A stretch of 34,660 nt of DNA from Candidatus Agathobaculum pullistercoris (GTDB lineage Bacteria > Bacillota > Clostridia > Oscillospirales > Butyricicoccaceae). The position numbers and the translations under genes were made by a program. This document shows positions 6,422-21,734 of this stretch, one piece after another (the stretch's first letter is position 1; the number at the start of each line of letters is the position of its first letter). The stretch lies in assembly GCA_019114345.1 (NCBI GenBank), contig DXFS01000095.1, positions 1 to 34,660 on the forward strand. The letters are read 5' to 3'. The notes beneath the pieces were generated by a model. That model was not told where the DNA came from and made no database searches. It saw only the letters and a program-made list of their open reading frames with translations.

Positions 6422-7543
6422 ATGAAGCAGTCTATACTGAAATTTTTGTCTGCACCGCCGGAAATCAGATCGGAATTGCGGCAGGATGCTTTCCTGAAAA
6501 ACCGGCGTTCGCTTTTTTTGATCTGTATCATGATTTTTTTCATGGAGCTGTTTAACATTGCCCGCGTGCTTTTCTGGTCCCGATCTGGTCTGGATTCGGT
6601 CAACAACCGGATCTATTTCGGGCTGTACTGCGCGCTGCTGCTTTCCGCAGCCCTTTACCTGTTGCTGGACCGCCTTCTTCGGCAGCGTTCTGCACGGCTG
6701 CAGCAGGCCGTACAGTATGGTTCCGTATTCTTCTTTTTTCTGTGGCATGCACTGCTCAATTCCTATGACCTCATGCGGGATCCTTTCGGAGGCACCGGCG
6801 TTTTTGTCACGGCAGTGCTTGCGTTGGCAGTTTTTATACACATGCCGGCGGCTTTCAGCATCACCGCCTATGTTCTGACCTATGTATTGTTCCTGCTTCT
6901 TTCCCACTCCAATATGACGAGCGGGGATATCATCAATCTGACCTTCAGCACCATTGTTGCGCTGGCCGTCTCATTAACTGACATGCACAATCTTTCTACT
7001 ATCATCTCCCAGCGCCGGGCGCTTGAAAATGCCAATGCCCAGCTGCAGGCAATGTCGCAAAAAGACCCGCTTACAGGCCTGCTCAATAAAACAGCCTTTC
7101 AAAGCCATACAGAGCTGGCCATCCGGAACGCCGGCTCGTCGGATGCCTTTGCGCTTTTGCTGATTGATTTAGATAACTTTAAGCGTATCAACGACTTATT
7201 CGGACACTTATGCGGCGACTATGTCATTGAACAGACGGCAGAGGCATTGCAGTCCGCCTTTCCGGATGCCGCGGGGATCGGCCGTGTCGGCGGGGACGAA
7301 TTTGCCGTAGCGCTGTATGGCCCAGCCGCCGCACGCCCTGAAGCCGCAAGCCGGCAGCTGATCCAGTCTCTCGTCAGCCTGCAGTGGCGGGACGAACCGG
7401 TGCATGCCTGCTGCAGCATCGGTATCTGCCGGACAGCACACCCCGATGTCGCATACCGGAAGCTCTATGAGCTGGCAGACCATGCATTATATCAAGCAAA
7501 ACGGCTCGGCAAAGGACGTTATTACATTTTCACCCCTGATTAA
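6422..7543 (+). CDS. Membrane-bound diguanylate cyclase (GGDEF)
   Basis: It makes the second messenger cyclic-di-GMP from two GTP. The start at 6422 has GAGAGGA in place; an upstream in-frame ATG at 6362 has none. Residues about 31-190 form some six membrane helices with no recognised sensor name. A short linker leads to the GGDEF domain (from about 212), with KDPLTGLLNK, DLDNFKRINDLFGH and an intact GGDEF at 290-294. No RxxD inhibitory site is at the expected position (AFPD there), so product inhibition may be weak. It is the first gene of the c-di-GMP/polysaccharide region and is separated from DUF4956 by a 245-base structured gap. Confidence 0.93.
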   Translation: MKQSILKFLSAPPEIRSELRQDAFLKNRRSLFLICIMIFFMELFNIARVLFWSRSGLDSVNNRIYFGLYCALLLSAALYLLLDRLLRQRSARLQQAVQYGSVFFFFLWHALLNSYDLMRDPFGGTGVFVTAVLALAVFIHMPAAFSITAYVLTYVLFLLLSHSNMTSGDIINLTFSTIVALAVSLTDMHNLSTIISQRRALENANAQLQAMSQKDPLTGLLNKTAFQSHTELAIRNAGSSDAFALLLIDLDNFKRINDLFGHLCGDYVIEQTAEALQSAFPDAAGIGRVGGDEFAVALYGPAAARPEAASRQLIQSLVSLQWRDEPVHACCSIGICRTAHPDVAYRKLYELADHALYQAKRLGKGRYYIFTPD

Positions 7544-7606
7544 CCGCCGGCCCATGAATCCTTATATGCAGACTATTGTGGATAACATATTTTTATGATA
7601 AAATTA

Positions 7607-7612
7607 TATAAT
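7607..7612 (+). promoter_or_regulatory. -10 element for the DUF4956-CotH operon
   Basis: A perfect TATAAT at 7607-7612 lies in an AT-rich stretch, with no convincing -35 at 17 bases (AACATA there). A transcript starting near 7620 would carry a leader of about 170 nt before the DUF4956 gene. Confidence 0.5.
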
Positions 7613-7619
7613 ACTACTC

Positions 7620-7788
7620 CGCTTTCAACATGCACTTTCGGATTTATCATGGTCACCAGTTGACCGAACAGGCGGGATCCGCAAAGCAGATCAGTTGCCG
7701 GTCTCTGCCCTGAACGAGCGCATTACCTGCGCCTACGGGCGCGCGGCCGCGCCATTACAAAACAGATAAGGGGGAGAACACTAAGGTA
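7620..7788 (+). ncRNA. Highly structured 5' leader upstream of DUF4956, candidate cis-regulatory RNA
   Basis: Successive helices can be drawn. GGTCA/TGACC is at 7651-7655/7661-7665. CAGG/CCTG (7669-7672/7709-7712) encloses CGG-GAT-CCG and GCAGA/TCTGC (7686-7690/7704-7708) as a three-way junction. GCGCA/TGCGC (7718-7722/7728-7732) and GGCGCG/CGCGCC (7738-7743/7748-7753) follow. CGCAAAGC at 7680-7687 recalls the core of the c-di-GMP-I riboswitch, but the rest of that consensus is absent. No T-run follows the last hairpin, so control of translation is more likely than termination. Class unknown. Confidence 0.4.
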
Positions 7789-8472
7789 ATGAGAGAATAT
7801 TTGATGCAGCTTCTGGAATCCACAGGCGAACTCACTGCGGAGTCCATCCTGCTGCGGCTTGCGGTTTCCGCCGTAATCGGCGGTTTTATTTTCCTTTCTT
7901 ACCGCCTGTCCCACAACGGCAGCGTGTACAGCAAAAAGTTCAATGTATCGCTGGTGGCGCTGGCCGTTATTACCACCACAGTTATGATCGTAATCGGCAA
8001 TAATATCGCGCTGTCGCTCGGCATGGTGGGCGCGCTGTCCATCGTCCGTTTCCGCACGGCGATTAAGGATTCGCGCGATACCGTCTACATCTTCTGGGCG
8101 ATCGTTGTGGGCATCTGCTGCGGCTCGGGCGATTATCTGATCGCCGCTGCTGGCAGCGCTGTAGTTTTTCTGGTGCTTCTTTTGTTCGGCCGCATCCGGA
8201 ACGATAACCGTGCCTTGCTGGTTATGCGCACAGCCCGCATCAATGAGGAAAAAATTGAGGCGCTGATTTTCCAGTATTATGCGCGCAAGGCGATTTTACG
8301 TGTGAAGAACACCACAGAAAGCAGTATTGAATTGATTTATGAACTCAATGCACGCTATCTGGACTCCCGCAAGCAGCCGCCCGGTCAAAAAAGCATTACC
8401 GATGCGGTTTACGAGATCGGCAATATCGAATACTTCAATATTGTCATGCAGAGCGACGAGATCAGCAGCTGA
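7789..8472 (+). CDS. DUF4956 membrane protein
   Basis: The 227-residue product has hydrophobic segments near 19-37, 50-68, 70-85, 96-112 and 115-133, then a soluble C-terminal half. The signature stretch GNNIALSLGMVGALSIVRFR followed by TAIKDSRDTVYIFWAIVVG is that of the DUF4956 family. Its biochemical role is not established. DUF4956 genes are commonly found beside VTC-domain and CotH-kinase genes, and both occur here (CotH immediately downstream, VTC 11 kb further on). ATG 7789 is preceded by GGGGGAG at some distance, and an ATG at 7804 is an alternative. CotH follows after 35 bases. Confidence 0.88.
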   Translation: MREYLMQLLESTGELTAESILLRLAVSAVIGGFIFLSYRLSHNGSVYSKKFNVSLVALAVITTTVMIVIGNNIALSLGMVGALSIVRFRTAIKDSRDTVYIFWAIVVGICCGSGDYLIAAAGSAVVFLVLLLFGRIRNDNRALLVMRTARINEEKIEALIFQYYARKAILRVKNTTESSIELIYELNARYLDSRKQPPGQKSITDAVYEIGNIEYFNIVMQSDEISS

Positions 8473-8507
8473 CCGCCCTCAGCAGCCGCACTGGAAAGGA
8501 GAACGCA

Positions 8508-10052
8508 ATGCGCTACAAAATAATGGGGTTCGCCATGATGGCATTGATGTTCTTCTGCTCCTTTGCGGCTACTGCACTGGATCAGGACAACAGTCAAAAC
8601 CGCATCCACCAGCACCGCAGCTACCAACTGCCGGAAACGGAGTGCACCTGTGACGGCATGGAGCTCTGCACCCACCTGCCGCTGATCCGCATTGATACTG
8701 CAGGACAGTATATTCCCGGCGAGATCATCCGGGATCCGGAAAACAGCGAAGCCGTGCTTGGCTACACGACCACGCAATCCGGCGCAAGCGAGATCCTGGT
8801 GACCATCGAAACCGTTGAGACCGAGGGCGAGTGGCACCATGCCTCCGACCCTGCCGATCAGAGCAGTCAGGCGCTCTTCCGCATCCGCGGCAACAGCTCA
8901 AGGAATTTTGACAAGAAAAGCTACCGCATCAAGCTGGTGGAGGACGAAACGGCTGCAAGCGGCAATGACCTGCCGCTGCTCGGCATGAACCCGGACAACG
9001 ACTGGGCGCTGCACGGCCCATTTCTGGATAAAACACTGCTCCGTAATTACATGTGGATGAATATTTCCGCTGAGGTGATGGGCTATGCGCCCAATGTCCG
9101 GTTCTGTGAACTGATTCTCAACGGCGAATACCGGGGCGTCTACGTACTGATGGAAACCATCAAGGAGAGCGAGTACCGGGTCGATTTGAGCGATTATGAG
9201 GAAGGCTCGACCGCTACCAGTTATCTTCTGCAGCTGGACGCCGTAGGTACGCCTGCAGACCAGAACAGCGCCGATGTCTATTTGGAGAATTATACCTGGT
9301 ACACCCACCAGACTGAGTTCAGCGAAGTTTCCCGGACCGGTTTTTCTATATTATATCCACAAAAAGAGTACCTCTCGGAAGATGTGGTCGGCTATATCCA
9401 GCGGGATGTCAGCCGCATTGAGCGCGGCCTGTATTCCTCCGATATGGTGACTGGTACTTATGATTATCAAAGCGAACTGGATGTGGACTCCTTTGTCGAT
9501 TACTACATTTTGCAGGAGTTCCTTGCAGTGAACGATGCGTTCTCCCGCTCCACCTATCTCTACCGCGATATCCGCGGTACGCTGCACATGGGCCCGGTAT
9601 GGGACTATAACAACGTGCTGAATAATTTCTTCATCGACCTTTCCCGCCGCGGCTTCCTGCTGGCCAACCGCGGCTGGTACGGACGGCTGATAACAAGCGA
9701 AGATTTTGTCGAACGCGTAATTGGCCGCTACCGTCAGCTGCGCCAAGGCGTACTTTCCGACGAATACCTGACAAATTATATCGACGAGGTGATAGCGTTT
9801 CTTGGTCCCGCGATCGAACGCAACGATGAGGTGTGGGGCTACAGCTACAACCCCAGCCTTTTAGAACGGCGCCAGCGCAGAGAGCCCGATGAAGGCGAAA
9901 CCCTCGAGGAAGCCAATCCATGCAGCTACGAGGACGCCATCGGCCGTATGGAGGGCTATATGCTCTCCCGCGCGGAATGGCTGGATGAGCACATCGATAC
10001 GCTTTACCAGTATTGCCATCCGTCCAAAAACGCCTCGCAATGGCTGGGATAA
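8508..10052 (+). CDS. Secreted CotH kinase-like protein
   Basis: The 514-residue product begins with a signal peptide or anchor (residues 1-23) and has the CotH fold. RIRGNSSR (125-132) is followed by KKSYRIKL, NDWALHGPFLDKTLLRNYM (164-182), the strand GEYRGVYVLMETIKES (206-221) and the GPVWDYNNVL metal-binding segment near residue 365. CotH of Bacillus spore coats is an atypical secreted protein kinase; in Clostridia such proteins are often extracellular and sit with DUF4956 and VTC genes. The start has AAAGGAGA upstream. The next gene begins 10 bases after the stop. The substrate here is unknown, and one of the operon's surface proteins would be the first guess. Confidence 0.88.
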   Translation: MRYKIMGFAMMALMFFCSFAATALDQDNSQNRIHQHRSYQLPETECTCDGMELCTHLPLIRIDTAGQYIPGEIIRDPENSEAVLGYTTTQSGASEILVTIETVETEGEWHHASDPADQSSQALFRIRGNSSRNFDKKSYRIKLVEDETAASGNDLPLLGMNPDNDWALHGPFLDKTLLRNYMWMNISAEVMGYAPNVRFCELILNGEYRGVYVLMETIKESEYRVDLSDYEEGSTATSYLLQLDAVGTPADQNSADVYLENYTWYTHQTEFSEVSRTGFSILYPQKEYLSEDVVGYIQRDVSRIERGLYSSDMVTGTYDYQSELDVDSFVDYYILQEFLAVNDAFSRSTYLYRDIRGTLHMGPVWDYNNVLNNFFIDLSRRGFLLANRGWYGRLITSEDFVERVIGRYRQLRQGVLSDEYLTNYIDEVIAFLGPAIERNDEVWGYSYNPSLLERRQRREPDEGETLEEANPCSYEDAIGRMEGYMLSRAEWLDEHIDTLYQYCHPSKNASQWLG

Positions 10053-10062
10053 GGGGTCTGCA

Positions 10063-12192
10063 ATGAAACGGTTTATTATTATAGTCTGCGCTGTCCTGCT
10101 GCTGGCAGGCGGTACCTGGTACGCATCCCTTTATTTCGGCCTGTATATTGACCTGAACCCGGATACGCCGGTTACTGTGCTGTTCCGCACACAGGGAACT
10201 GAGATCCAGCGCCAGGCAGGTGCAGGCGCTTGGGAAAGCATGCGGATACGCGGTGTGGATGTATCCTCCAACCTGCCGGGCGAGCCGCCCATGGATTTCG
10301 CCCCGGAGGAGGAAGATTACCTGCGCTGGTTTGAGCAGATCGGCGCCATGGGCGCCAACACCATCCGCGCCTATACGCTGATGGACGACGATTTTTACAG
10401 CGCTTTTTACACCTATAATATGACACATGATGATCCGCTGTACCTGCTGCAGGGCCTGCAGGTATCGGACGCTGCCAACTACGGCGCGGAGGATGTTTAT
10501 GATTCGGATTTCTTCGGCCTGCTGCTGAAAAACGGCAGGGCCGTGGTGGACGTTATCCACGGGAACCGGATTGTCAGCCCGGGCGATACCAGCGGCACCG
10601 GTTTTTACCGCTGGGATGTCTCCGAATGGGTGGTGGGCTATCTCGTGGGCAGCGAATGGGACAGCGGCAACATCGCTTATACCAACAACAGCACCACCTA
10701 TCCCTCCTCTTATATGGGCACTTACTTTACCACCGGGCCGGATGCGTCCCGCTTTGAAGCGGCCATAGCGCAGGTGATGGATCAGATCACTGGATACGAG
10801 ACGGCAAAGTATAGAACCCAGCGTCTGATCGGTTTTGTCAACGACGCCAACAACGATCCATTTGAATACAGCTATCTGTATTCCACCCGCTTTTTCAAAT
10901 ACAACCAGATTGATGCCGAAAATATTCTGCCAACGCAGGAGCTGCAGTCCGGCTATTATGCAGCGTACCGGCTGAGTTATATTAACCCGGAGTTTGTGCA
11001 GTATCTTTCCGACCAGCAGAAGGCAGAGCTGTCCGGCATACTGGATGCGCTGGATACCTCGGATATTTACCACGGCTACCTGAACCTGCTTGGACAATAT
11101 CACACCATGCCGGTCATTGCAGCAGGCTATGGCTTTTCCACCTCGCGCGCAGCACTGTATGAGGGACAGGAGCCTCTGACCGAACAGCAGCAGGGCGAGT
11201 CGCTCATCCGTGTCTGGCAGGATGCCACAAAAGCCGGCTGGGCGGGTGTGTTTATCTCTACCTGGCAGGATGTGTGGAACCGCCGCACCTGGAACACCGG
11301 CTATGCGACGCTGGATTCGGTCATGCCGGTCTGGCAGGATGCACAATCGGACGGGCAGGGCTATGGCCTGATGGAGTTTTATCTCGGAGAACAGACACGA
11401 TCCTGCTATGTGGGCGGAGACGCATCCGAATGGACACAGGCGGATATTGTGCTGGAAAATGAGCAAGGCAGCCTGTCCATGCAGTATGACGAAAAATATC
11501 TGTACTTTTATGTGCAGGCGGATGCGTTCGACCCCGGGCAGGATATCCTGTACATTCCGATCGACACCCTCTCTTCCCTCGGCAGCACATATTGTGAAAA
11601 CTACGGCGTTTCCTTTGACCGGGCGTGTGATTTTGTGATTTGTATCGACGGACGGGACAACAGCCGTGTCTTGGTGCAGGAACGCTATGAGATCTTATGG
11701 GCGATGCACGCCTATGAGCTTGGCCGCGCGGATGCCTATGACGAGATCCGTTCCGCCAGTTCCCCGGTTTTCCGGACCATCAACTTGATGGTGCAGCGCC
11801 AGGACCCTGTCCCGATCGGAGAATGGTACCCCGCAGTCACCTATGAGACCGGTAAGCTGCGCTACGGCAATACCAATCCGGCATCTGCAGATTTCGATTC
11901 TTTGGCGGACTTCATGTTCACTGAAAAAGGGGTGGAAATCCGCATCCCCTGGCAGATGCTGAATTTCGGCGATCCCGCGGAGCGCAAGATCCATGATGAT
12001 TACTATGAAAACTTTGGCGTTGAATATATCCAGATCGACGAGATGTATGTGGGATTCTCCACAGCAGCTGCAGCCGGTACCCGGATCCGCACCGCTCCTT
12101 TCTCACTGGAGGGCTGGGGTACGGATGTCACCTATCACGAGCGGCTGAAGGAATCCTACTACATGCTGCAAAATTTATGGACCGCCGCATAG
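10063..12192 (+). CDS. Membrane-anchored TIM-barrel (glycoside-hydrolase-like) protein with C-terminal beta-sandwich
   Basis: The 709-residue product starts at ATG 10063 (AAGGGG upstream), has a signal anchor (residues 4-25) and faces outward. MRIRGVDVSSNLPGE and DYLRWFEQIGAMGANTIRAYT are the opening strands of a GH2-type TIM barrel found in polysaccharide gene clusters. Near residues 398-410 it reads ISTWQDVWNRRTWNT; relatives usually show FEW-x-DEW here, so the usual Glu residues are Thr and Val. Residues about 445-705 look like a CBM9/DOMON-type beta-sandwich (GGDASEWTQADIVLENE; YLYFYVQADAF). It may bind rather than cut the polymer. It sits between CotH and the HEAT-like/glycosyltransferase pair. 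Confidence 0.72.
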   Translation: MKRFIIIVCAVLLLAGGTWYASLYFGLYIDLNPDTPVTVLFRTQGTEIQRQAGAGAWESMRIRGVDVSSNLPGEPPMDFAPEEEDYLRWFEQIGAMGANTIRAYTLMDDDFYSAFYTYNMTHDDPLYLLQGLQVSDAANYGAEDVYDSDFFGLLLKNGRAVVDVIHGNRIVSPGDTSGTGFYRWDVSEWVVGYLVGSEWDSGNIAYTNNSTTYPSSYMGTYFTTGPDASRFEAAIAQVMDQITGYETAKYRTQRLIGFVNDANNDPFEYSYLYSTRFFKYNQIDAENILPTQELQSGYYAAYRLSYINPEFVQYLSDQQKAELSGILDALDTSDIYHGYLNLLGQYHTMPVIAAGYGFSTSRAALYEGQEPLTEQQQGESLIRVWQDATKAGWAGVFISTWQDVWNRRTWNTGYATLDSVMPVWQDAQSDGQGYGLMEFYLGEQTRSCYVGGDASEWTQADIVLENEQGSLSMQYDEKYLYFYVQADAFDPGQDILYIPIDTLSSLGSTYCENYGVSFDRACDFVICIDGRDNSRVLVQERYEILWAMHAYELGRADAYDEIRSASSPVFRTINLMVQRQDPVPIGEWYPAVTYETGKLRYGNTNPASADFDSLADFMFTEKGVEIRIPWQMLNFGDPAERKIHDDYYENFGVEYIQIDEMYVGFSTAAAAGTRIRTAPFSLEGWGTDVTYHERLKESYYMLQNLWTAA

Positions 12193-12219
12193 CGGCCGGT
12201 AAAAAAGGGGGAAAGCGGC

Positions 12220-13323
12220 TTGGGAACCGAGATCCTGTTATATTTCTACGGGCTGGTCTGCCTGAGCATGCTGGCCTTTAACATCGTTTATAGTTTATAT
12301 CTGCGTTTGGGCGACCGAAAGCTGGACCAGCGCGTCAGCTTTTTTTCACGCGCGGTAAGCGACCAGCTGCAGCACATCCGGGCAGGGCAGCCCGTAGAGA
12401 CGCGCCACCTTGCCTCCCTCAACCGCAGGCTTTCCCGTGTGAGTAATCTGCTCGCATACGACCGCGCGCTGGAAGCATTGCCGCGGCAGGACGCCGCAGT
12501 AGAGTCTTATCTGCATCAGATCGAGCCGACCATCTTGTACCTCGCCACCAAATACCGCAGGCGTGAAAACACTCAGGCGGCATTTTTCTGTTATTTTTTG
12601 GCGCAGAACCGTATTTTGCGTCAGATGCCGATGGATGAAATACAACGCATTCTTGTTACTTTTACGTCCCGCGACAGCCTGTACTGCCGCGTCAATGCGC
12701 TGAAGGCGCTCTGCGCTTTCGGCAGCGCGGAAACCATTGTGGATACCCTGCTGTACTGCGACCGGCAGAGCAGCTTCCTGCATGCCAAGGTGCTGGTAGA
12801 AACCCTGCTCTCCTTCACCGGGAACCATGCGGAATTAATCCGGCTGGTCTGGGAACGGTTTGACCGTTTTTCCAATGGGACAAAACGGGCGCTGCTGGAT
12901 TACATACGTTTCAACAGCGGGGCGTATTGCGAGCAGATGCTGGGCCTCATGCTTGATCCCAAAACAGATAAGGAGCTGCGCCTTGCGGCAATCCGCTATT
13001 TTGGCCGCTACTATTACCTGCCGGCCAAACAGCCGCTTTTGGAATTTGTGTCCAGCCCGGATGAGCTGAACTGGGAATATGCCGCAATCAGCGCGACAGC
13101 GCTTTCCAATTACACGGGGGAAGACGTGGATGCAGCGCTTGTGCGCGCCATACACAGCTCGAACTGGTACGTGCGCTACAATGCGGCCATCAGCCTCGAG
13201 TCGCATGGGATGACCTATGAAGAAATGCTGGCGGCCGTTGGGCCAGGCGACCGCTATGCACGCGAAATGCTGGCGTACCGCCTGGAGAGCAGGCGTCAGC
13301 AGGAGGAGACACTACTGGTATGA
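12220..13323 (+). CDS. Membrane-anchored HEAT-repeat-like protein coupled to the glycosyltransferase
   Basis: The 367-residue product begins with TTG at 12220, supported by AGGGGGAA 7-8 bases upstream. One N-terminal helix (residues 5-28) anchors it, and the rest is a series of helix pairs: VNALKALCAFGSAETIVDTL, ELRLAAIRYFGRYYYLPAK, WEYAAISATALSNYTGEDVD, WYVRYNAAISLESHGMTYEE. This is the look of HEAT-like repeats facing the cytoplasm. Its stop overlaps the start of the glycosyltransferase by 4 bases (ATGA), so equal amounts of both are likely made. It is a plausible regulatory or scaffold subunit of the synthase. No PilZ motif is present. Confidence 0.8.
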   Translation: MGTEILLYFYGLVCLSMLAFNIVYSLYLRLGDRKLDQRVSFFSRAVSDQLQHIRAGQPVETRHLASLNRRLSRVSNLLAYDRALEALPRQDAAVESYLHQIEPTILYLATKYRRRENTQAAFFCYFLAQNRILRQMPMDEIQRILVTFTSRDSLYCRVNALKALCAFGSAETIVDTLLYCDRQSSFLHAKVLVETLLSFTGNHAELIRLVWERFDRFSNGTKRALLDYIRFNSGAYCEQMLGLMLDPKTDKELRLAAIRYFGRYYYLPAKQPLLEFVSSPDELNWEYAAISATALSNYTGEDVDAALVRAIHSSNWYVRYNAAISLESHGMTYEEMLAAVGPGDRYAREMLAYRLESRRQQEETLLV

Positions 13324-14723
13324 GGGATTTCATTCAATTATTCCTGCGCTGCGTGGAATTCTTTTTTATCCTATACATGGTGGGCTATGCGAGTTTTCTG
13401 TTTCTGTCCGTCACCGTGGGATCATCCACACTGTATGCGGCAAAGCGGCGCAACGCGCTGAAAAACGAGCTGTCCAACGATTATTATGTGCCGGTATCGG
13501 TTATTGTACCGGCGTACAACGAAGAAGTGACCATAGAGGCAACCATCCGTTCCCTGCTCGCGCTGGATTACCGGCTGTATGAGATCATCGTCGTGGATGA
13601 TGGTTCCTCTGACCGGACAAGCGAGACGGTCCAGCATGCATTTGGCATGCGGCGCATAGACCGGCCGATCCAGCAGCGCATTGCCTGCCAGCCGCAGGAA
13701 GCGGTCTATGAGACACGCAGCTGGAAAGTGCCGATCACCCTTGTGCGCAAAAAGAACGGCGGCAAGGCGGACGCGCTGAACATGGGTATCAATGTATCGG
13801 GCTACCCTTATTTCCTGTGTATTGATGCTGATTCCGTGCTGCAGCGTGATTCGCTGGACAAAATCGTGCGGCCTGTCCTCGAGAGCGACAATGTTATCGC
13901 CGTTGGCGGCTCCGTGCGTCCCTGCAACGGGGCGGAAATCGAACAGGGCACGGTCATCCGCTACCGGATGCCGAATAACCTGATCGCCTGCATGCAGGTG
14001 CTCGAGTACGACCGGTCCTTCCTGGCATCACGCATCCTGTTCGACCAGTTTAATGGAAATATTATTATTTCAGGCGCATTCGGCCTGTTTCAGAAAAATC
14101 TGGTGATCGATGCCGGCGGGTACGACCACAATACCATGGGAGAAGACATGGAACTGGTCGTCAAGCTGCATGTCTTCTGCCGCGAACACGGTATCCCCTA
14201 CCGCATCCGCTATGTGACCGATGCGATCTGCTGGACGCAAGTTCCCGAACGGCTGCGCGACCTGTGTAAGCAGCGCCGCCGCTGGCATATCGGCCTGTTT
14301 CAGAGCATGATGAAACACCGCAATATTCTGGGGAATCCAAAATACGGTGCAGTAAGCTTTATCTCGTATTTCTACTTCCTGATCTATGAGCTGTATTCCC
14401 CTTATATCGAAGTATTCGGTATTTTCGCCACCCTGCTGGCCTTTGCGGTGGGGCTGATCAATGTTCCGTTCATGATTTTATTCTTCGGTATTTATGTGGT
14501 TTATTCCGCGGTTCTTTCACTCTCGGCCTTTTTCGCCCGTGTGCATACAGTGGATCTCAAGCTTCATATCACGGACATGCTCAAGGCCATTGGCCTGTGC
14601 ATCGTTGAAGTATCCTGCCTGCGGTTTATCCTGGCGTGGGTGCGCATCACAGCATTGATTGGCTACCGGCAGAAAAAGGACGAATGGGGCAAAATCGAGC
14701 GGCAAAAAATCGAGTTCAAATGA
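13320..14723 (+). CDS. Processive family-2 glycosyltransferase (polysaccharide synthase, IcaA/BcsA-like)
   Basis: The 467-residue protein has an N-terminal membrane helix (about 10-33), a cytoplasmic GT2 domain and three to four C-terminal helices (about 345-450). The processive-synthase residues are all there: DDGSSD (93-98), DAD (169-171), TMGEDME (272-278, catalytic Asp276) and the Q-x-x-R-W motif KQRRRW (317-322). Enzymes of this type polymerise a UDP-sugar and push the chain through the membrane; poly-N-acetylglucosamine, hyaluronan or a beta-glucan are possible and cannot be told apart here. It is coupled to the HEAT-like gene and followed by a coiled-coil gene after 20 bases. There is no C-terminal PilZ domain. 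Confidence 0.93.
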   Translation: MRDFIQLFLRCVEFFFILYMVGYASFLFLSVTVGSSTLYAAKRRNALKNELSNDYYVPVSVIVPAYNEEVTIEATIRSLLALDYRLYEIIVVDDGSSDRTSETVQHAFGMRRIDRPIQQRIACQPQEAVYETRSWKVPITLVRKKNGGKADALNMGINVSGYPYFLCIDADSVLQRDSLDKIVRPVLESDNVIAVGGSVRPCNGAEIEQGTVIRYRMPNNLIACMQVLEYDRSFLASRILFDQFNGNIIISGAFGLFQKNLVIDAGGYDHNTMGEDMELVVKLHVFCREHGIPYRIRYVTDAICWTQVPERLRDLCKQRRRWHIGLFQSMMKHRNILGNPKYGAVSFISYFYFLIYELYSPYIEVFGIFATLLAFAVGLINVPFMILFFGIYVVYSAVLSLSAFFARVHTVDLKLHITDMLKAIGLCIVEVSCLRFILAWVRITALIGYRQKKDEWGKIERQKIEFK

Positions 14724-14743: not shown

Positions 14744-15262
14744 ATGCGGATAGACGAAATGAAAAAAGGCTTTTGGGGCTATAAAAAGGAGAGTGTTTTT
14801 CAGTATATCGCCGAGCAGGAGGAAACTTACTCCCACAGGCTGCAGGAACAAACCGCATCTGCCGAGCAGCAGCTGCAGCAATACCGGAAACGTGTGGACG
14901 AGCTGGAGGAGGAACTGCGCCGCATGCAGACCGAGCTTTCGCAAGCAAGGAAGCATCAGGACATGATCTCCGATGCCCTGCTGGAGGCGCAGGCCTGCGC
15001 GGAACGCATGAAAGCGGAAACACGCAGCCAGGAACTGGAGGCGCGCGAAAAAATACAGGAAACCTTGCGCGCTGAGATGGCTGCGTTGGAACAGTATCAG
15101 GGGAAGATCACGGAATTGCGCAGCTTTTTGCAGGAAATGCTGCAGGTCTTTCAGCAGGCTGCTGCGGATGCATCGCAGAAAGCAGAACAGCTGGCATCTG
15201 ATTCGCCGGCTGAGAATCTGACACTGTTCCAGAAAGCCCAGGAGCAGGAGGACGCAATGTGA
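14744..15262 (+). CDS. DivIVA-like coiled-coil protein
   Basis: The 172-residue product starts at ATG 14744 behind AAGGAGGG. Its head, IDEMKKGFWGYKKESVFQYI, matches the DivIVA/GpsB pattern of a short helix, a GY turn and a V-x-x-Y/F-(I/L) helix start. Residues about 25-150 are a continuous heptad-rich coiled coil (RVDELEEELRRMQTELSQ), and the tail is acidic. DivIVA relatives mark curved or polar membrane and recruit other proteins, so this may position the synthase complex. It shares 4 bases with the downstream EAL gene. Confidence 0.75.
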   Translation: MRIDEMKKGFWGYKKESVFQYIAEQEETYSHRLQEQTASAEQQLQQYRKRVDELEEELRRMQTELSQARKHQDMISDALLEAQACAERMKAETRSQELEAREKIQETLRAEMAALEQYQGKITELRSFLQEMLQVFQQAAADASQKAEQLASDSPAENLTLFQKAQEQEDAM

Positions 15263-17100
15263 GCGCAGGCGGTCTGATTTACATCGCGGGCAATCCGGAT
15301 CTGTACCCGCTGGAATACTATGACCCGGATGCAGGCACCTATCAGGGAACGATCCCTTCCGTACTGGCGCAGTTTGCACAGGAAAGCGGCTACGACCTGC
15401 AGTATTACCAGCCCGGCGCAACCGACCGCCGGGCGGAGCTGGCAGAGAACAAGCAGATCGACGCTGTCTCCGGCTGTACGGACCGGGAAGCGGTATCCGG
15501 CGCAGAACAGGTCACTCTGTTCCAAGCAGAAATCGACGGCCAAACGGTCACATATTCTCTTATTTTCACGGATTCGGCTCCAGAGGACTTTGTGCAGGCA
15601 CTGCGCTCCTATCTGTCCGGGGTAACACAGCCCGAATGGACCGGGGCTATGCTGCAGTCTGTTTCCCAAAGCCCGCAGTCCGTTTCCCTGCTGCCTGTCT
15701 CCATAGGGCTGGGCCTTACGGTCTGCCTGCTGCTGGCAGCACTGACATTGTCTGTACGCCGGTTCCGCAGGCAGCTGCGGCAGGCTGAACGCTTTCGTTC
15801 CATTGATCCGGAAACCGGTTTGGATACCATGGAATACCTGCAGCGCCGTTTTCCTGCCTTTGTTCATGACAAAAACCGTGTCCTTTACCATGTTGTTTAT
15901 TTTTATCTGGATCTCGGACACGTCGAGCGGCTCGGAGGACACATGGCCGCCACTGCAATGCGGCGCCACGCGTCTGCCGTTCTCCGGGCACGTCTCGGTC
16001 CCGGCAGCGCTGCTGCTACGGCGTCAAATGCTGGTATTGCTGCCGTGATTCTGGCCGGAACCACGCAAAAAGCCAGAGAATGGGCGCTGTCCGTGCTGGA
16101 ACAGATCCGTGCCTTTACCGACGAAGGCGGGAATATTTACCCGCTGGATGCAGCGGCAGGTCTGTATTCCCTGCAGCCCGGCGACCACGATCTGAATCTG
16201 GCGCTGTTTTATGCGGAACAATGCGCACGTCTTGCCTGCCGCGAAGGGGAAGGCCTGCGTCTCTGCTCACAGGATGTCTGCCGGGCCTTTGAAGAGGAGC
16301 GGCAGCTGCTGGCAGATGTCAGCGAAGGGTTCCGGCAGGAGCAGTTCCGGATCTATCTCCAGTTTTATGTCAACGCCTCCAACTTCGAAATAGTGGGCGG
16401 CGAAATGCTGGCACGCTGGCAACATAACCGGAAAGGCCTGCTGCTGCCGGGGCAGTTTGTGCCGTTGATGGAGCGGGAGGGACTGGTCAGCAGGCTGGAT
16501 TATTACTGTCTCGAAAAGGTCTGTGCTTTTCTCGAAATGCTTGGCCGGAACGGCGTGCAGAATTTCTTTATCTCCTGTAACTTTGCCCGCAGCACAATCA
16601 CCTCTGCCAGCTTTGTAGAGAAATGCAAAGAAATTATCTCCCGCTATCGTTTTTCCCGTGAACTACTGGTTTTCGAGGTTACCGAAAGCGAAAAAAGCCG
16701 GGATCAGACCCAGATGGATGCCCATATCCGGGAAATGCGTGCATTCGGCGTGCGCGTACTGTTTGATGATTTCGGCGTGGGCTTTTCTTCCTTCCACGAT
16801 CTGCAGGAATCCGACATGGACGGATTGAAGCTGGATAAATATCTGGTGGAAAATATCTCCACTCCGCAGGGCCGCTCTATCCTGAACGCCATGGTGCAGG
16901 CGGGACACGAACTCGACCTGACCATTCTTGCCGAAGGCGTAGAGCAGGCGGCGCAGGCGCAAGTACTGCAGCAGCTCGGCTGTGATGTGCTGCAGGGCTT
17001 TTACTTCTCCCGCCCTATGCCTGCGGAGCAGTCTGCGCAAAAGATCATCAAGCAGTTCCGGACATCAACCGGACATTCTGAGACGGACGCCCGCGGCTAA
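15259..17100 (+). CDS. EAL phosphodiesterase with degenerate GGDEF and a short solute-binding-like N-terminus
   Basis: The 613-residue product starts at GTG 15259 (AGGAGG 7 bases upstream), overlapping the coiled-coil gene. Residues 5-75 resemble lobe 1 of a type-3 periplasmic solute-binding domain (YIAGNPDLYPLEYYDPDAG), but no signal peptide precedes it and the domain is short. A membrane helix follows at about 142-165. The GGDEF site reads SNAGI (about 256-260), so cyclase activity is lost. The EAL domain keeps E-M-L (382-384), FEVTES (472-477), DDFG (503-506), KLD (524-526) and AEG (558-560), so c-di-GMP hydrolysis is possible. It is the last gene of the synthase operon. Confidence 0.88.
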   Translation: MSAGGLIYIAGNPDLYPLEYYDPDAGTYQGTIPSVLAQFAQESGYDLQYYQPGATDRRAELAENKQIDAVSGCTDREAVSGAEQVTLFQAEIDGQTVTYSLIFTDSAPEDFVQALRSYLSGVTQPEWTGAMLQSVSQSPQSVSLLPVSIGLGLTVCLLLAALTLSVRRFRRQLRQAERFRSIDPETGLDTMEYLQRRFPAFVHDKNRVLYHVVYFYLDLGHVERLGGHMAATAMRRHASAVLRARLGPGSAAATASNAGIAAVILAGTTQKAREWALSVLEQIRAFTDEGGNIYPLDAAAGLYSLQPGDHDLNLALFYAEQCARLACREGEGLRLCSQDVCRAFEEERQLLADVSEGFRQEQFRIYLQFYVNASNFEIVGGEMLARWQHNRKGLLLPGQFVPLMEREGLVSRLDYYCLEKVCAFLEMLGRNGVQNFFISCNFARSTITSASFVEKCKEIISRYRFSRELLVFEVTESEKSRDQTQMDAHIREMRAFGVRVLFDDFGVGFSSFHDLQESDMDGLKLDKYLVENISTPQGRSILNAMVQAGHELDLTILAEGVEQAAQAQVLQQLGCDVLQGFYFSRPMPAEQSAQKIIKQFRTSTGHSETDARG

Positions 17101-17194: not shown

Positions 17195-17273
17195 TCTTTC
17201 CGCGTTTAGGAATATACCGGGCATGCAAACCGCAAGCCCAGACATCGTTATAACCGGTTGCCACGCGGAAAGA
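17195..17273 (+). ncRNA. Candidate structured RNA with pseudoknot upstream of the dCache-EAL gene
   Basis: Within the 227-base gap 17101-17327, an 11-bp stem TCTTTCCGCGT/ACGCGGAAAGA (17195-17205/17263-17273) encloses a hairpin GGGCATGC/GCAAGCCC (17219-17226/17232-17239, one A-A mismatch) with loop AAACC. The loop can pair with GGTT at 17256-17259 as a pseudoknot. Alternatively GCAAACCG (17225-17232) pairs with CGGTTGC (17255-17261). The next gene starts 55 bases later after GGAGG. I recognise no known class. Confidence 0.4.
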
Positions 17274-17327
17274 TGAGCATGGCCAGCCCTGATACAAGTC
17301 CAGAAAACCGCATTTCAGGAGGAACCA

Positions 17328-19604
17328 ATGGAAAAGAAGTATTCAAAACGCCGCCGCAGCCAGCGGATACTGGCGGTCTTATTCGGCGCAGTCATACTGG
17401 CGCTGTCCTGGGTGTTCCTTCAGAATTCCCTTCATATCTACGAACAGTCACGCGGACGCACCAAGCAGTATCTGATCGATATCACCTACCAGCTGCATGA
17501 GCACATCGAAACCCAGATCCAAAATTCGCTGGAGATGCTGCGTCTGATCCGCAACGGCGCGCTGGAAATCGAACCGGAGGAAAGGGAACGCTATCTGACA
17601 GATCTTGCGGATTTTTCCAATTTTAACAGCCTGCACCTGGTTAGTGATTTCGACCAGGCCGAGGCATGGCTCCGGCAGCACTATGGCGGGCAGTATGTGC
17701 TGGACCGCGACTTGCTGCAGCAGGGGCAGGCCCAGCTGATTGCAATCCCCGGGAAGAGCATGGTTGTATATTTCACTGCGGATCATGCCGATCAGGATAC
17801 TTCGGTGATCATCGGGGAAAAGGGAAACGAGCTGCTGAAAGAACTGCTCAGCAACAACAGCTTTGACGGCCAGGCGCTGACACTCACCATCACCCGGCAG
17901 GGCACCGTTATCACATCGCAGATTGAACAAAACTTTTTTGACGAAATCGCCGCATCCTATGCCGGGACAGAATATGCCGAAGTACCGCAGCTGTTTGAAA
18001 AAATGCGGGCAGACCTGCGTACTGGCCAAAGCGGTACCCTCTCCTTCCCTTCGCGCAGCGGCGAAAGCCTGCTGCTCAGTTATGAGCCGCTCTCCTTCTC
18101 AGACTGGTGTGTTTTCACTGTGATCCCCGCCTCCGTGCTGAATGCCGGCATAGAGGATCTGACAATGCAAAATCTGGTGCTGACGCTTGTCACCATATTG
18201 CTTTTGGTAAGTGTCGGGGGCTTTCTTGTCATTTTGCAGCGGAAACACACCCGGCGTTTAACCGATATTGCTTTTATGGATGAGATAACCGGCGGCTGGA
18301 ATGAGCTTCGATTCCGGCTGGAAGCAGAACAGATACTGAAATCATCGGATGCTGCCTGGTCCATAGTATCGGTGGATATCGCGGATTTTACCTTTCTCAA
18401 CAATATTTATGGTGCACAGGCCGGCGATGCCGTACTCCGTCATGTCTTTGCACAAATCAGGAACATGCTGCAGCCGGGCGAAATTGCGGCGCGCAGTTCC
18501 GCAGATATTTTTTATATTTTGCTTCAGACGCAGGACCGGGATGCAATCATCCGCAGGCTGTCGGGCCTCAAACGCAATGCCGAAGCCTTTACCGGATTGG
18601 ATAACGGGAGCTACCGGTTCGAGTTGCGTGCCGGCGTGTATCTGATCCACGATTGCAGCCGCAATCTAGCATGGATGGAAGAAAGCGCCAACCTTGCCCG
18701 GAAATACCGGGACGGGCAGGAATGTTCGTTTTATCGCGAAGAAAGGATGCAGGAGCAAAAGCTTGAGCGTGAACTTATCAGCGATATGCCGTCCTCCCTC
18801 CGCAGCGGTGCATTTGAGGTATATCTGCAGCCCAAGGTGCGCCTGTCCGACGGCTGTATCAGCGGCGCGGAGGCGCTGATACGATGGAACCATCCCGAAA
18901 AGGGCATGTTATCGCCCGGGATCTTCATCCCTATTTTGGAAAAGGCAAAAATGATCAGTCGACTTGACCATTTTATGTTTGAACAGGTCTGCCTGCTGCT
19001 GCAGCGCTGGCAGCAGGAAAGCCGGGAAACTTGCGTCATATCCGTAAACCTGTCGCGGCAAAATCTGTCTATTCCCGACCTGCTGCAGCAATATCGTGCG
19101 ATCTGCGAACGCTATGGTGTCGCCCCTTCCAGCATTGAACTGGAGCTGACAGAAAGCATTTTCATGGAAAATACGGCATGGATGCAAAAGTTCGTACAGG
19201 AAATGCATCAGCTCGGCTTCCGCTGTTCGCTGGATGATTTCGGGGCGGGTTATTCTTCACTTGGCCTGCTCAAGGATCTGGATATCGACGTCATCAAGCT
19301 GGACCGGAGCTTTTTTGCCGGAAATGTACCGGACGGCGGTAAAGGCCGCTTGATTGTATCCTCCATCCTAAATCTGGCGCAACAGCTGCATATCCATACA
19401 GTAGCTGAAGGGATCGAGCAGACAGAGCAGGTCAGCGCGCTGCGCAGGATGGGCTGCGATGTTGTACAGGGCTTTGTTTTCTTCCGCCCCATGCCCGTAG
19501 CGGATTTTGAACAGCAGGCCTATAACGGCGGCAAACTGCGGTGTCTGCCCTGCACTGCAGCTGAAGAACCAAACAACAGCAAGGAGCCTCCCTCTCATGA
19601 ATGA
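17328..19604 (+). CDS. Membrane EAL phosphodiesterase with extracytoplasmic Cache-like sensor and degenerate GGDEF
   Basis: The 758-residue product has membrane helices at about 14-32 and 282-303, bracketing a ~250-residue outside region laid out like a dCache sensor. A linker leads to a GGDEF domain whose active site is SADIF (391-395) and should not make c-di-GMP. A full EAL domain follows: EALIRW (515-520), SVNLSRQNL, ELELTES (604-610), DDFGAGYSS (636-644), KLDR (657-660), AEGIEQ (693-698). It should degrade c-di-GMP in response to an outside ligand. The start is behind CAGGAGG. Its last codons overlap the VTC gene by 8 bases, tying the two together. Confidence 0.92.
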   Translation: MEKKYSKRRRSQRILAVLFGAVILALSWVFLQNSLHIYEQSRGRTKQYLIDITYQLHEHIETQIQNSLEMLRLIRNGALEIEPEERERYLTDLADFSNFNSLHLVSDFDQAEAWLRQHYGGQYVLDRDLLQQGQAQLIAIPGKSMVVYFTADHADQDTSVIIGEKGNELLKELLSNNSFDGQALTLTITRQGTVITSQIEQNFFDEIAASYAGTEYAEVPQLFEKMRADLRTGQSGTLSFPSRSGESLLLSYEPLSFSDWCVFTVIPASVLNAGIEDLTMQNLVLTLVTILLLVSVGGFLVILQRKHTRRLTDIAFMDEITGGWNELRFRLEAEQILKSSDAAWSIVSVDIADFTFLNNIYGAQAGDAVLRHVFAQIRNMLQPGEIAARSSADIFYILLQTQDRDAIIRRLSGLKRNAEAFTGLDNGSYRFELRAGVYLIHDCSRNLAWMEESANLARKYRDGQECSFYREERMQEQKLERELISDMPSSLRSGAFEVYLQPKVRLSDGCISGAEALIRWNHPEKGMLSPGIFIPILEKAKMISRLDHFMFEQVCLLLQRWQQESRETCVISVNLSRQNLSIPDLLQQYRAICERYGVAPSSIELELTESIFMENTAWMQKFVQEMHQLGFRCSLDDFGAGYSSLGLLKDLDIDVIKLDRSFFAGNVPDGGKGRLIVSSILNLAQQLHIHTVAEGIEQTEQVSALRRMGCDVVQGFVFFRPMPVADFEQQAYNGGKLRCLPCTAAEEPNNSKEPPSHE

Positions 19605-20292
19605 AGTGCTGCGGAAAGAGCGCAAATACCTTATCAACCTGGAACAAATGTACCGTGACACCCATGTCCTGTCGCAGATCCTCCATGAGGATAAGCACAA
19701 CTGCGGCAGCGGGTATATGATCCGTTCACTGTATTTTGATACGCCCGATGACCGAGACTTCCACGAAAAAGAAGACGGCATTGAGCTGCGCCGCAAGATG
19801 CGGCTGCGCTGCTATTCTCCGGATGCGGATTTCGCCGTACTGGAAATGAAGCAGAAACAGGGTGATTCGCAGCGCAAGCGCTCGCTCCGTATGTCCCGCA
19901 CGGATGCGCAGCGCCTGATCCGCGGTGAGTACAGCGTTCTGCTGCAGTATGCCGAGCCCTTTGCTGCGGAATGTTTTGCGATGCTGCAGATGCACGCCTA
20001 TCGTCCCAAATCGGTCGTAGAATATCGCAGGAAGGCGTATATCGCGAAAGAAAACAAAATCCGTATCACGTATGACCACCATATAACCGGTACTGAAAGC
20101 TGTTTTGATATTTTCTCGCCCCATCTTCTTCAAAACCCGCTGTTTGATCCCGGCCTGGTGGTGGTTGAAGTGAAATATAACGGTTTTCTGCTCAGTTATA
20201 TCAAGGATATGATGGATCGGTGCAACGCGAGTGAGCTTTCGGTTGGCAAGTATAGCCTGTCGCGTTCTTTGAGCAAACATTATTATTTCTGA
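19597..20292 (+). CDS. VTC-domain (polyphosphate polymerase fold) protein
   Basis: The 231-residue product is a single VTC domain of the CYTH/triphosphate-tunnel type. It shows RKERKYLI near the start, SLYFDTPDD (46-54), the basic run RRKMRLRCY (67-75), LEMKQKQGD, the KIRITYD strand and VVVEVKYNG, ending in VGKYSLSR. In yeast VTC4 this fold makes polyphosphate from ATP. Bacterial relatives are annotated as polyphosphate polymerase domain proteins, but I do not know that activity is proven for this subfamily. It overlaps the EAL gene by 8 bases and uses AAGGAG inside that gene. A conventional polyphosphate kinase is also present at 27432. Confidence 0.9.
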   Translation: MNEVLRKERKYLINLEQMYRDTHVLSQILHEDKHNCGSGYMIRSLYFDTPDDRDFHEKEDGIELRRKMRLRCYSPDADFAVLEMKQKQGDSQRKRSLRMSRTDAQRLIRGEYSVLLQYAEPFAAECFAMLQMHAYRPKSVVEYRRKAYIAKENKIRITYDHHITGTESCFDIFSPHLLQNPLFDPGLVVVEVKYNGFLLSYIKDMMDRCNASELSVGKYSLSRSLSKHYYF

Positions 20293-20301
20293 TCCCCCGT
20301 A

Positions 20302-20334
20302 CCGGCCCCCAGCAGCGCTACGGCTTCGGGCCGG
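20302..20334 (+). other. Intercistronic hairpin
   Basis: CCGGCCC (20302-20308) pairs with GGGCCGG (20328-20334) between the VTC and cyclase genes. No T-run follows, so it is more likely an RNA-stability or attenuation element than a terminator. Confidence 0.4.
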
Positions 20335-20357
20335 CAAAACAGAAAAGAGGCAAGCCA

Positions 20358-21734
20358 GTGAATAATAAATTTGATTTTTTCAAAGACAACAGCACAAAAT
20401 GGTATATACTGGGTACCATAATCGCCATTGAAATTCTTGTATCCGAGTCCTTCCTGGGATATATCCATATTGAACCGATCTCTATCACCTTTGCGTATAT
20501 TCCGATCCTGATTGCAGGTGTTCTGATGGGACCCGCCGAGTCCACTGCAGTGGGGGTTGTATTCGGCCTGATCAGTATGGGGAAAGCTTCTGCAAGCTAT
20601 GTAATGGCCGGCGACCAGGTATTTTCCCCACTGATGAGCGGCCATCCGGTCAACAGCATTATCCTCAGTGTAGGGATGCGCGCCCTGTTCGGTTTTATAT
20701 CCGGTTTTCTGTATGCGCTGGCTAAAAAGCACAGCCGCCATCCGGACCTGTGGATCTGTATCATTTCCTTTTTCGGCAGGACAATGCACTCCGCCCTCGT
20801 GTATGGCTGCATGGCCTTACTGTTTCCGGAGCTGGGCTATGGGGTAACCGATGTATTCCAGGGGTTCTTTTCCCCCAGCAATTTACTTTCCCTTCTTATA
20901 ACCGCCGCAATCATCTGGGGCTGCCGGTGCGCGCTGCGCACGCGCTCTTATAAACGTTTTGTGCAGCGTATGAGTATGGTAAAGAACCTCCGGCTCACAG
21001 AGACTTACCGAAACCGGCCGCTGGCTATCTTTATCACCACTGAGTTTTGCATTGCCTGCGCGGTAACCGTCTATTTTGTAGGACGCATCCGGTACATGCT
21101 GGTGCAGAAAGGGATCGCCGTCTCTGATGAAACCGTTTACGACCTGGTTCTGCTCCAGGCGCAGTTTTTAATCGGCATACTGGCACTGATGTTCCTGCTG
21201 ACGGTATTCCAGGTATTCAACCGCAGATGGCACACCTGTGTGGAGTATGAAATACGCCTGGATACGCTCACCGGTGTGTGGAACCGGCGGAGTTTTTTCC
21301 AGCGAGGGGAAAGCATGCTGGCCGAGACGAATCGTCAAGCCGCCTGTTATGGCTATTTCATCATGGTGGACGTGGACTGGTTCAAGCAGATCAATGATGA
21401 ATTCGGCCATCCCGAAGGGGACCGTGTCTTACATGACATTGCCAAATGCCTGCGAGAGATTTTTTCTCCTATTGGGCTGATCGGCCGGCTGGGAGGCGAC
21501 GAATTCGCCATTCTGATCGATAAGCCGGTTCCGCGCCAGCAGTTGGAGGAAAATCTTGATCAATTCGCCAGACGGATCGACACGCTCAGCAGCGAAGCTT
21601 CCAGCCTGACCTGCAGTATCGGTGTGCTCATTATTTCCCACCCGGCGCCGCTCGAAGAACTCTATAAAAAGGCCGACCGGCTGCTCTATCTTGCGAAACA
21701 GCAGGGACGAAACCGCTACATCTTCAGCGAATAA
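20358..21734 (+). CDS. Diguanylate cyclase fused to an ECF-transporter S-component-like membrane domain
   Basis: The 458-residue product starts at GTG 20358 with AGAGG 8 bases before it. Residues about 15-190 resemble the substrate-capturing S component of ECF vitamin transporters: ITFAYIPILIAGVLMGP (43-59) followed by a glycine-rich VGVVFG helix. Further helices at about 222-242 and 265-287 lead to a GGDEF domain with LDTLTGVWNRR, DVDWFKQINDEFGH and intact GGDEF at 379-383; no RxxD inhibitory site is in register. I infer a cyclase that reports a small ligand such as a vitamin, without an attached transporter. It is last in the c-di-GMP region, before a terminator. Confidence 0.88.
   Translation: MNNKFDFFKDNSTKWYILGTIIAIEILVSESFLGYIHIEPISITFAYIPILIAGVLMGPAESTAVGVVFGLISMGKASASYVMAGDQVFSPLMSGHPVNSIILSVGMRALFGFISGFLYALAKKHSRHPDLWICIISFFGRTMHSALVYGCMALLFPELGYGVTDVFQGFFSPSNLLSLLITAAIIWGCRCALRTRSYKRFVQRMSMVKNLRLTETYRNRPLAIFITTEFCIACAVTVYFVGRIRYMLVQKGIAVSDETVYDLVLLQAQFLIGILALMFLLTVFQVFNRRWHTCVEYEIRLDTLTGVWNRRSFFQRGESMLAETNRQAACYGYFIMVDVDWFKQINDEFGHPEGDRVLHDIAKCLREIFSPIGLIGRLGGDEFAILIDKPVPRQQLEENLDQFARRIDTLSSEASSLTCSIGVLIISHPAPLEELYKKADRLLYLAKQQGRNRYIFSE

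Follow-up and report, generated by a model that had tools for sequence, protein, structure and literature searches.

The window, a stretch of 34,660 nucleotides from Candidatus Agathobaculum pullistercoris (contig DXFS01000095.1), carries at positions 6422-21734 a rearranged version of a widely conserved operon, likely one that makes a surface polysaccharide. Taken as a whole, the locus is likely to serve the synthase-dependent production of an exopolysaccharide, with c-di-GMP driving the operon. The six-gene order at its core is already in print as the NELoc-2 locus of Clostridium perfringens (available text of PMC2879425); new here is the evidence that ties the operon to c-di-GMP. If the explanation is true, gut Bacillota possess one more type of exopolysaccharide under c-di-GMP control, in addition to Pel, cellulose and Pss.

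Eleven open reading frames, all on the plus strand, fill the interval. Their products match the Pfam families GGDEF (6422-7543), DUF4956, CotH, HEAT_2, GT2, EAL (twice) and VTC, and include a second GGDEF-only protein. The eleven-gene content reported in a first-pass annotation is real, and the overlaps of 4 and 8 bases that it described lie at three gene junctions (HEAT/GT2, 4 nt; coil/EAL1, 4 nt; PDE2/VTC, 8 nt). The features are:

6422..7543, +, DGC1, membrane diguanylate cyclase (Pfam GGDEF)
7789..8472, +, DUF4956 membrane protein (Pfam; alignment)
8508..10052, +, CotH-family kinase-like protein (Pfam; signal-like N-terminus read from the sequence)
10063..12192, +, membrane-anchored TIM barrel of predicted clan GH-A type, with C-terminal beta domain (AlphaFold model; alignment)
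12220..13323, +, HEAT protein, long N-terminal helix plus alpha solenoid, TTG start (Pfam HEAT_2)
13320..14723, +, processive-type GT2 synthase, PgaC/IcaA- and BcsA-like (Pfam; NCBIfam)
14744..15262, +, DivIVA-like coiled coil (DivIVA match under the Pfam cut-off)
15259..17100, +, EAL1: SBP_bac_3-like N-terminal domain (weak match), one TM helix, degenerate GGDEF, EAL (Pfam; alignment)
17328..19604, +, PDE2: membrane sensor region, GGDEF domain, EAL domain
19597..20292, +, VTC-domain polyphosphate-polymerase-like protein, displaced (Pfam)
20358..21734, +, DGC2, diguanylate cyclase with ECF S-component-like membrane domain
21760..21790, no strand assigned, terminator-like inverted repeat with 13-bp stem, 3′ of the last operon gene

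Relatives were gathered with an alignment of the TIM-barrel protein as query against genome contigs; a search of genome contigs with the HEAT protein alone gave no match. At least 570 stretches coding for a TIM relative were found (stretches, not counted as distinct genes), and the matches listed include many from Clostridia and one from a Paenibacillus. The 80 loci analysed are the best 80 TIM matches to the window among these stretches, and counts made on them therefore lean to close relatives. The two locus sets share contigs, as judged by length (L048 is L059, L051 is L082, L042 is L138), and were therefore not summed; L049 and L067 lie on the same 72356-base contig.

GT2 is absent from three of 81 sources (L083, L111, L127), and dropping these leaves 78 GT2-bearing loci. 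The core, VTC-DUF4956-CotH-TIM barrel-HEAT-GT2, is complete in 74 of them, counting the window; 73 of these keep it colinear, and the sole exception is the window. VTC stands at the head of the core in 75 of 81 sources, and is displaced in the window. Three incomplete cores (L059, L069, L095) belong to loci that begin at contig ends. L091 departs genuinely: its CotH is short, and VTC and DUF4956 are absent from 9.4 kb upstream. In a comparison of six genes between the window and its nearest named relative, dN/dS lies at 0.04-0.18, values that are rough since dS is 1.3-1.9. Because of this range and the completeness of the core, the gene set is beyond chance. The proposal of one conserved system is borne out: homologous clusters, far from always lacking CotH, DUF4956 and VTC, nearly always carry all three. 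The window copy itself is atypical, in that VTC has moved, a riboswitch is undetected and the presumed nucleophile of the TIM barrel is gone.

The first-pass interpretation stands as regards a conserved system, a processive-type GT2 and control by c-di-GMP; its view that the combination had not been described does not, as the same order is printed for NELoc-2 (CP4_0460-0468), without a function, in the available text of PMC2879425. Compared by published table rather than by sequence, that locus has VTC, a membrane protein of 222-226 aa in the place of DUF4956, CotH (497 aa), a 685-aa protein of unknown nature, HEAT (377 aa) and GT2 (466 aa), arranged as in the core. It differs in that VTC and the 222-226 aa gene are doubled around a resolvase and no c-di-GMP gene is listed in it. 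All the defining elements of a NELoc-2-type locus (VTC, DUF4956, CotH, a 685/710 aa protein, HEAT and GT2 in one operon) are found in the window, with VTC displaced; the C. perfringens side of this comparison comes from the available text of PMC2879425 only. The names 'chitin synthase' and 'tubulin/FtsZ' given there to NELoc-2 genes are partly misnomers, and if our explanation is true this 'chitin synthase and tubulin' locus would be recast as a matrix locus. Two of its genes (VTC and DUF4956-like) are lower in vivo in C. perfringens according to the available text of PMC4983038, which counts against that explanation. Neither PMC8250860 nor PMC2864571 describes this operon in the text available.

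The synthase retains the motifs DDG, DAD, GED and QRRRW, and the processive GT2 proposed from the first reading is supported as processive-type. Its top NCBIfam match is PgaC/IcaA. It is very improbable that the locus is a known operon (cellulose, PNAG or Pel) plus decoration: GT2 is indeed similar to PgaC/IcaA and BcsA, but it falls far under both cut-offs (TIGR03937, 150.6 bits against an equivalog cut-off of 422.3; CelA, 49.3 against 699.1), and at the thresholds used none of the eleven operon proteins matched a PilZ, BcsB, PgaD or Pel family. PilZ was not found in the window genome either (77% complete; control detected in 5/14). The cellulose operon ccsZABHI also has a clostridial GT2, there with a clan GH-A hydrolase (GH5), but has PilZ on its GT2 and O-acetylation genes, and its text does not mention CotH (PMC7710045). 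The gts operon of Lactobacillus acidophilus shares a GT2 synthase, a membrane partner and an EAL protein, which there binds c-di-GMP; it differs in consisting of gtsA-gtsB-pdeB only, its EAL protein lacking catalytic residues (PMC6123363).

A PF01522-type polysaccharide deacetylase occurs in 7 of the 80 loci, at four positions within or adjoining the operon, and points to an N-acetylhexosamine polymer; none was found within 6 kb in the other 73, and the eleven operon proteins of the window have none either. According to a later survey, 18 of 23 NELoc-2 strains carry a polysaccharide deacetylase (available text of PMC11677781). The polymer is most likely N-acetylhexosamine-based.

VTC, DUF4956 and CotH, the three genes that lead the core, would make up an accessory module at the envelope through which the matrix is modified or licensed, possibly via phosphate transfer. 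In DUF4956 a block, SLGMVGALSIVRFRTA, is nearly invariant across 74 aligned copies; searched by sequence against solved structures, CotH gave a weak match to spore-coat CotH only and VTC gave none. VTC, DUF4956 and CotH might instead constitute a separate polyphosphate or surface-protein system with only transcription in common with the GT2 genes. This would accord with a second VTC-DUF4956 pair in the window genome, adjoining a secreted Cthe_2159/SLH protein, and with distant relatives that have synthase genes while VTC, DUF4956 and CotH were not seen there (TIM, HEAT and GT2 in L054, L056 and L057; HEAT and GT2 on the 3.9-kb contig of L055). We regard it as unlikely, given the near-complete linkage in 74 of 78 GT2-bearing loci and the printed occurrence of the same gene set beside an unrelated synthase, Pel (available text of PMC7112168).

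In those Gram-positive Pel clusters CotH, polyphosphate polymerase, DUF4956 and a glycoside hydrolase adjoin the synthase; the synthase is PelDEADAFG, not GT2/HEAT, and the hydrolase is DUF4832 (available texts of PMC7112168 and PMC12345266). In S. intermedius, Pel amount and aggregation changed on deletion of either the CotH gene or a membrane gene whose product has MgtC/ACT domains and which we read as DUF4956-like (available text of PMC12345266). A joint reading, which we hold to be distinctly doubtful, is that VTC and DUF4956 are a split bacterial counterpart of the eukaryotic VTC complex: VTC would make cytosolic polyphosphate, DUF4956 would move it over the membrane, and extracytoplasmic CotH would use it, where ATP is absent, to phosphorylate a matrix protein or the growing polymer chain, itself partly de-N-acetylated, giving a phosphorylated polyhexosamine matrix under a c-di-GMP riboswitch. 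The operon gives a setting in which this unexplained module can be tested.

Of 27 related loci scanned with Rfam, 15 have a c-di-GMP riboswitch upstream of the operon that reaches the gathering score. With our own models a class I or II riboswitch was found in 34 of 81 sources, every one upstream of the operon (30 class I, of which 11 are the training set; 4 class II, all training set); of 73 eligible relatives, 40 have none by these models. In another set of 28 sources, which overlaps this one in part, there are 7 strong class I matches, one of them (L051) on the contig of L082. Riboswitches of two classes are in this way tied to one synthase operon. A terminator-like hairpin has its 5′ arm in the 3′ end of the aptamer in 29 of the 30 class I cases and all four of class II (shuffled controls: 0.2% of 600, 3.8% of 80); a cruder overlap test gave 26/30, and in one hairpin scan the strongest hairpin of L062 fell outside the aptamer. 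An aptamer 3′ end able to form a terminator arm (33/34) is an ON-switch architecture, from which we infer ON polarity. Rfam and our own models found no riboswitch in the window, and loose thresholds on 6000-8000 likewise gave nothing; none was found in the window genome, where absence is not established since control genomes also gave no match.

It is quite improbable that the product is a non-matrix envelope glycan or a spore or coat polymer, with CotH a coat kinase and c-di-GMP setting timing only. Switches turned on by c-di-GMP suit sessile growth more than sporulation, which counts against it. The many clostridial hosts and the one Paenibacillus would accord with this reading, as would the place of CotH in a spore-coat kinase family, which PMC7112168 also states; yet the available text of that source puts CotH, polyphosphate polymerase and DUF4956 next to Pel in non-spore-forming streptococci and bifidobacteria.

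With these riboswitches in relatives and four GGDEF/EAL proteins in the operon, c-di-GMP control is supported more strongly than could be seen at first. DGC1 has an intact GGDEF motif and lacks the RxxD I-site five residues upstream (read from sequence); in the GGDEF domain of PDE2, SSADIF stands where the motif should be; the EAL domain of EAL1 has catalytic-type residues. DGC2 has relatives in loci L059, L062 and L065. A search of the window genome (77% complete) for GGDEF and EAL domains found six such proteins, four of which lie in the operon.

EAL1, with its SBP-degenerate GGDEF-EAL layout, is coded next to GT2 on its downstream side or else behind the coil gene. Of the 62 loci whose sequence runs at least 2.5 kb beyond GT2, 50 have it (fused L084 included), a fairer figure than a tally of 58/71 that includes loci picked because EAL1 was seen. 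Eleven of the 12 loci that lack it have no other GGDEF/EAL gene nearby, and none is annotated on a Planococcus plasmid copy, so c-di-GMP control is not essential. EAL1 is present in 31 of 31 judgeable riboswitch loci and a riboswitch in 0 of 12 EAL1-less loci, 14 of the 80 loci being impossible to judge. An in-frame GT2-EAL1 fusion, considered as strong proof of contact, was downgraded: it occurs in L084 only, whose genus mate is unfused, and the only other match spanning both proteins in a family search contains stops. A possible connection of the coil gene with the EAL1 signal peptide, inspected by eye, was dropped.

For an exopolysaccharide operon driven by c-di-GMP we propose that GT2 would polymerise and extrude the polymer, with HEAT as its constant membrane-anchored partner. 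Control would act at two levels. First, the riboswitch that slightly fewer than half of the examined relatives carry would, as an ON switch, pass RNA polymerase only at high c-di-GMP; second, at the synthase EAL1 may read or remove c-di-GMP, closing a feedback loop. The operon of the window lineage, where no riboswitch was found, instead has a pair of cyclases and a pair of EAL proteins. Riboswitch-fronted relatives make the function and control of the operon testable.

The extracytoplasmic TIM protein would bind or trim the chain. It has no Pfam match, and its profile, searched by sequence, matches no solved structure; the AlphaFold model resembles clan GH-A hydrolases (GH157, GH2, GH72) at 9-13% identity. 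The presumed acid/base Glu is retained in the window (codon 10654-10656), and this strand-4 Glu is present in 77 of 81 sources. At the strand-7 position, that of the presumed nucleophile, 70 of 81 sources have Glu, two a gap and nine Gly, the window among the last (codon 11125-11127); the TIM protein of the window lineage has probably turned into a non-hydrolysing polymer handler.

The first-pass annotation had described a single-strand set of eleven genes with overlaps of 4 and 8 bases. Both the gene set and the overlaps are borne out: Pfam and NCBIfam assign eleven forward-strand open reading frames across 6422-21734, three junctions of which overlap, by 4, 4 and 8 nt. Intergenic gaps are short apart from two, 245 nt upstream of DUF4956 and 227 nt upstream of PDE2 (the second of two EAL proteins). 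The operon is followed by one further feature:

21760-21790, terminator-like stem of 13 bp, 3′ of the operon

Comparison with Candidatus Agathobaculum merdigallinarum (L059) gives dN/dS ratios of 0.04 (GT2), 0.06 (VTC), 0.09 (TIM), 0.14 (DGC2, the second diguanylate cyclase), 0.16 (HEAT) and 0.18 (EAL1), all rough because dS is 1.3–1.9. Judged from these sequences, purifying selection acts on the compared genes.

The HEAT protein occurs in 22 of 391 genomes in a sample of the class, four weak matches and the window's genome among the 22, and in 7 of 87 genomes of the host family; a profile of the TIM protein matches 22 of 398 genomes in a sample of the phylum, again with the own genome included. 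Named genome contigs scanned for TIM relatives yielded at least 570 encoding stretches, from which the best 80 were retained as loci; these include Anaerotignum, Flavonifractor, Niameybacter, Paenibacillus, Holdemania and Eggerthellaceae. With the window counted, 74 of the 78 GT2-bearing sources have the complete six-gene core, and in 73 of the 74 the order is VTC-DUF4956-CotH-TIM-HEAT-GT2. The sole deviant is the window, where VTC lies 3′ of PDE2; in Ca. A. merdigallinarum it lies 3′ of EAL1. A Planococcus maritimus plasmid carries the same six genes in the core order, with no c-di-GMP gene among the annotations of the 17 kb around the operon. Three distant relatives (L054, L056 and L057) retain TIM, HEAT and GT2 without VTC, DUF4956 and CotH; a fourth, L055, on a short contig, has HEAT and GT2 only.

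The core has a counterpart in print. The table of the Clostridium perfringens locus NELoc-2 in PMC2879425 lists six products identical in kind and order to the core, with matching sizes. Two further papers report a deacetylase in 18 of 23 NELoc-2 strains (PMC11677781) and two NELoc-2 genes that are lower in vivo (PMC4983038). Elsewhere CotH, polyphosphate polymerase, DUF4956 and DUF4832 adjoin Pel clusters (PMC7112168), and deletion of the CotH gene or of SIR_1592, which encodes a membrane protein bearing MgtC and ACT domains and taken by us for the DUF4956 homologue, is reported to alter Pel amount and aggregation (PMC12345266). The systems described in PMC6123363, PMC7710045 and PMC7112194 differ from the core operon. 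In the literature covered (DUF4956; CotH with polyphosphate polymerase or HEAT; NELoc-2; c-di-GMP riboswitches with core genes), which takes in few subscription papers and preprints, we recognised no account of the core operon as a c-di-GMP-controlled polysaccharide system. The core operon is real, widespread and uncharacterised, and adds a new form to the exopolysaccharide systems that depend on a synthase.

Control of the operon family by c-di-GMP is well supported. Of 27 related loci examined with Rfam, 15 have a c-di-GMP-I or -II aptamer. Models built from these aptamers (R1, class I, on 11 sequences; R2, class II, on 4) detect a class I aptamer in 30 sources and a class II aptamer in 4, so that 34 of 81 sources have one, 15 of the 34 being training sequences. 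All 34 share the operon strand and lie 5′ of the operon (in L084 upstream of a deacetylase gene that itself precedes VTC), and elsewhere in the 1.5 Mb scanned there is no match to either model at E values up to 0.5. Among the 73 loci that begin with VTC and have over 400 nt of sequence ahead of it, 33 have a riboswitch and 40 have none by these models. Seven strong class I matches, each upstream of VTC, come from a further set of 28 sources that shares some members with the first; two weak matches there (E 0.097 and 0.14) are left out of the count. In 29 of 30 class I and all 4 class II cases a terminator can form with the aptamer 3′ end as its 5′ arm, as against 0.2% and 3.8% of trials with shuffled downstream sequence (600 and 80 trials, respectively). 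An earlier, cruder test against the estimated P1 stem found overlap in 26 of 30 class I cases; in L062 the strongest hairpin lay outside the aptamer. Because bound aptamer and overlapping terminator would be mutually exclusive, we infer that the riboswitches of the relatives are ON switches.

EAL1 combines a weak SBP_bac_3 match, a transmembrane segment, a degenerate GGDEF domain and an EAL domain. Of the 62 loci in which 2.5 kb or more follows GT2, 50 have it. Each catalytic-type EAL residue (E382, N441, D503, D504, E559 and Q579, window numbering) is found in 48–51 of 51 aligned copies, and the GGDEF motif is missing from all 51. Riboswitch and EAL1 occur together in 31 loci, EAL1 alone in 23, the riboswitch alone in none and neither in 12 (Fisher p = 2e-4, uncorrected for kinship). 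The N-termini of EAL1 vary: some are clearly signal-like, and others, that of the window included, begin a few residues ahead of the SBP-like domain. In L084 (8332-11661) GT2 and EAL1 form a single 1109-aa frame, either a true fusion or the loss of a stop codon in one MAG. The most frequent further neighbours belong to one similarity cluster, found at 34 loci. Of the three members scanned, one is a response regulator carrying an HD_5 (HD-GYP-type) domain and the other two are dCache histidine kinases.

Neither Rfam nor the R1 and R2 models detects a c-di-GMP riboswitch in the window. The gene content of its operon makes c-di-GMP control likely. In the own genome, which is 77% complete, GGDEF occurs at five places, three of them within the operon, and EAL at three, two of them within it; together these make six proteins (one weak, on contig 47). 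Since the operon holds four of these six and PilZ was not found in that 77%, EAL1 is the best candidate c-di-GMP receptor in the window lineage, judged on this portion of the genome. In DGC2 (20358-21734) GGDEF is combined with a membrane domain that resembles an ECF S-component (PF12822, 29.4 bits, slightly below the cut-off of 30.7), and the protein may be a vitamin-sensing cyclase; relatives occur in L059, L062 and L065.

The chemistry of the polymer, like the role of the phosphate module, is something we infer. GT2 scores best against PgaC/IcaA, yet far under cut-off, and its alignment to BcsA spans the DDG, DAD, GED and QRRRW motifs. A polysaccharide deacetylase family (Pfam applied to three of seven members) is present in 7 of 80 loci, between DUF4956 and CotH in four, and once each between TIM and HEAT, between the DivIVA-like coil gene and EAL1, and 5′ of VTC; its presence suggests an N-acetylated hexosamine chain. 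The predicted TIM fold (mean pLDDT 84) resembles enzymes that structure entry titles assign to GH157 and GH2, and Gel4, a GH72 enzyme. Of 81 sources, 77 keep a Glu at the end of strand 4; at the end of strand 7, 70 have Glu, 9 have Gly, the window among them, and 2 have a gap. With this Glu replaced by Gly, the window TIM copy is probably not a hydrolase. The HEAT model, a long N-terminal helix followed by an alpha solenoid (mean pLDDT 92), has a predicted shape fit for a scaffold.

A polyphosphate kinase gene (27432-29567, forward strand) lies 7 kb downstream in the window and an inorganic pyrophosphatase gene (26655-27221, reverse strand) likewise within a few kb of VTC, so that two kinds of polyphosphate enzyme share one region. 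A purple-acid-phosphatase-like gene lies 3′ of GT2 or EAL1 in 3 of 80 loci (L110, L133 and L135). On contig 38 of the own genome (L058, 7319-11283) a second VTC-DUF4956 pair, with no CotH seen beside it, adjoins a secreted Cthe_2159 carbohydrate-binding/SLH protein. In the window, a ZMP/ZTP riboswitch (23089-23179) precedes a formate-acetyltransferase-like gene, so named from its sequence.
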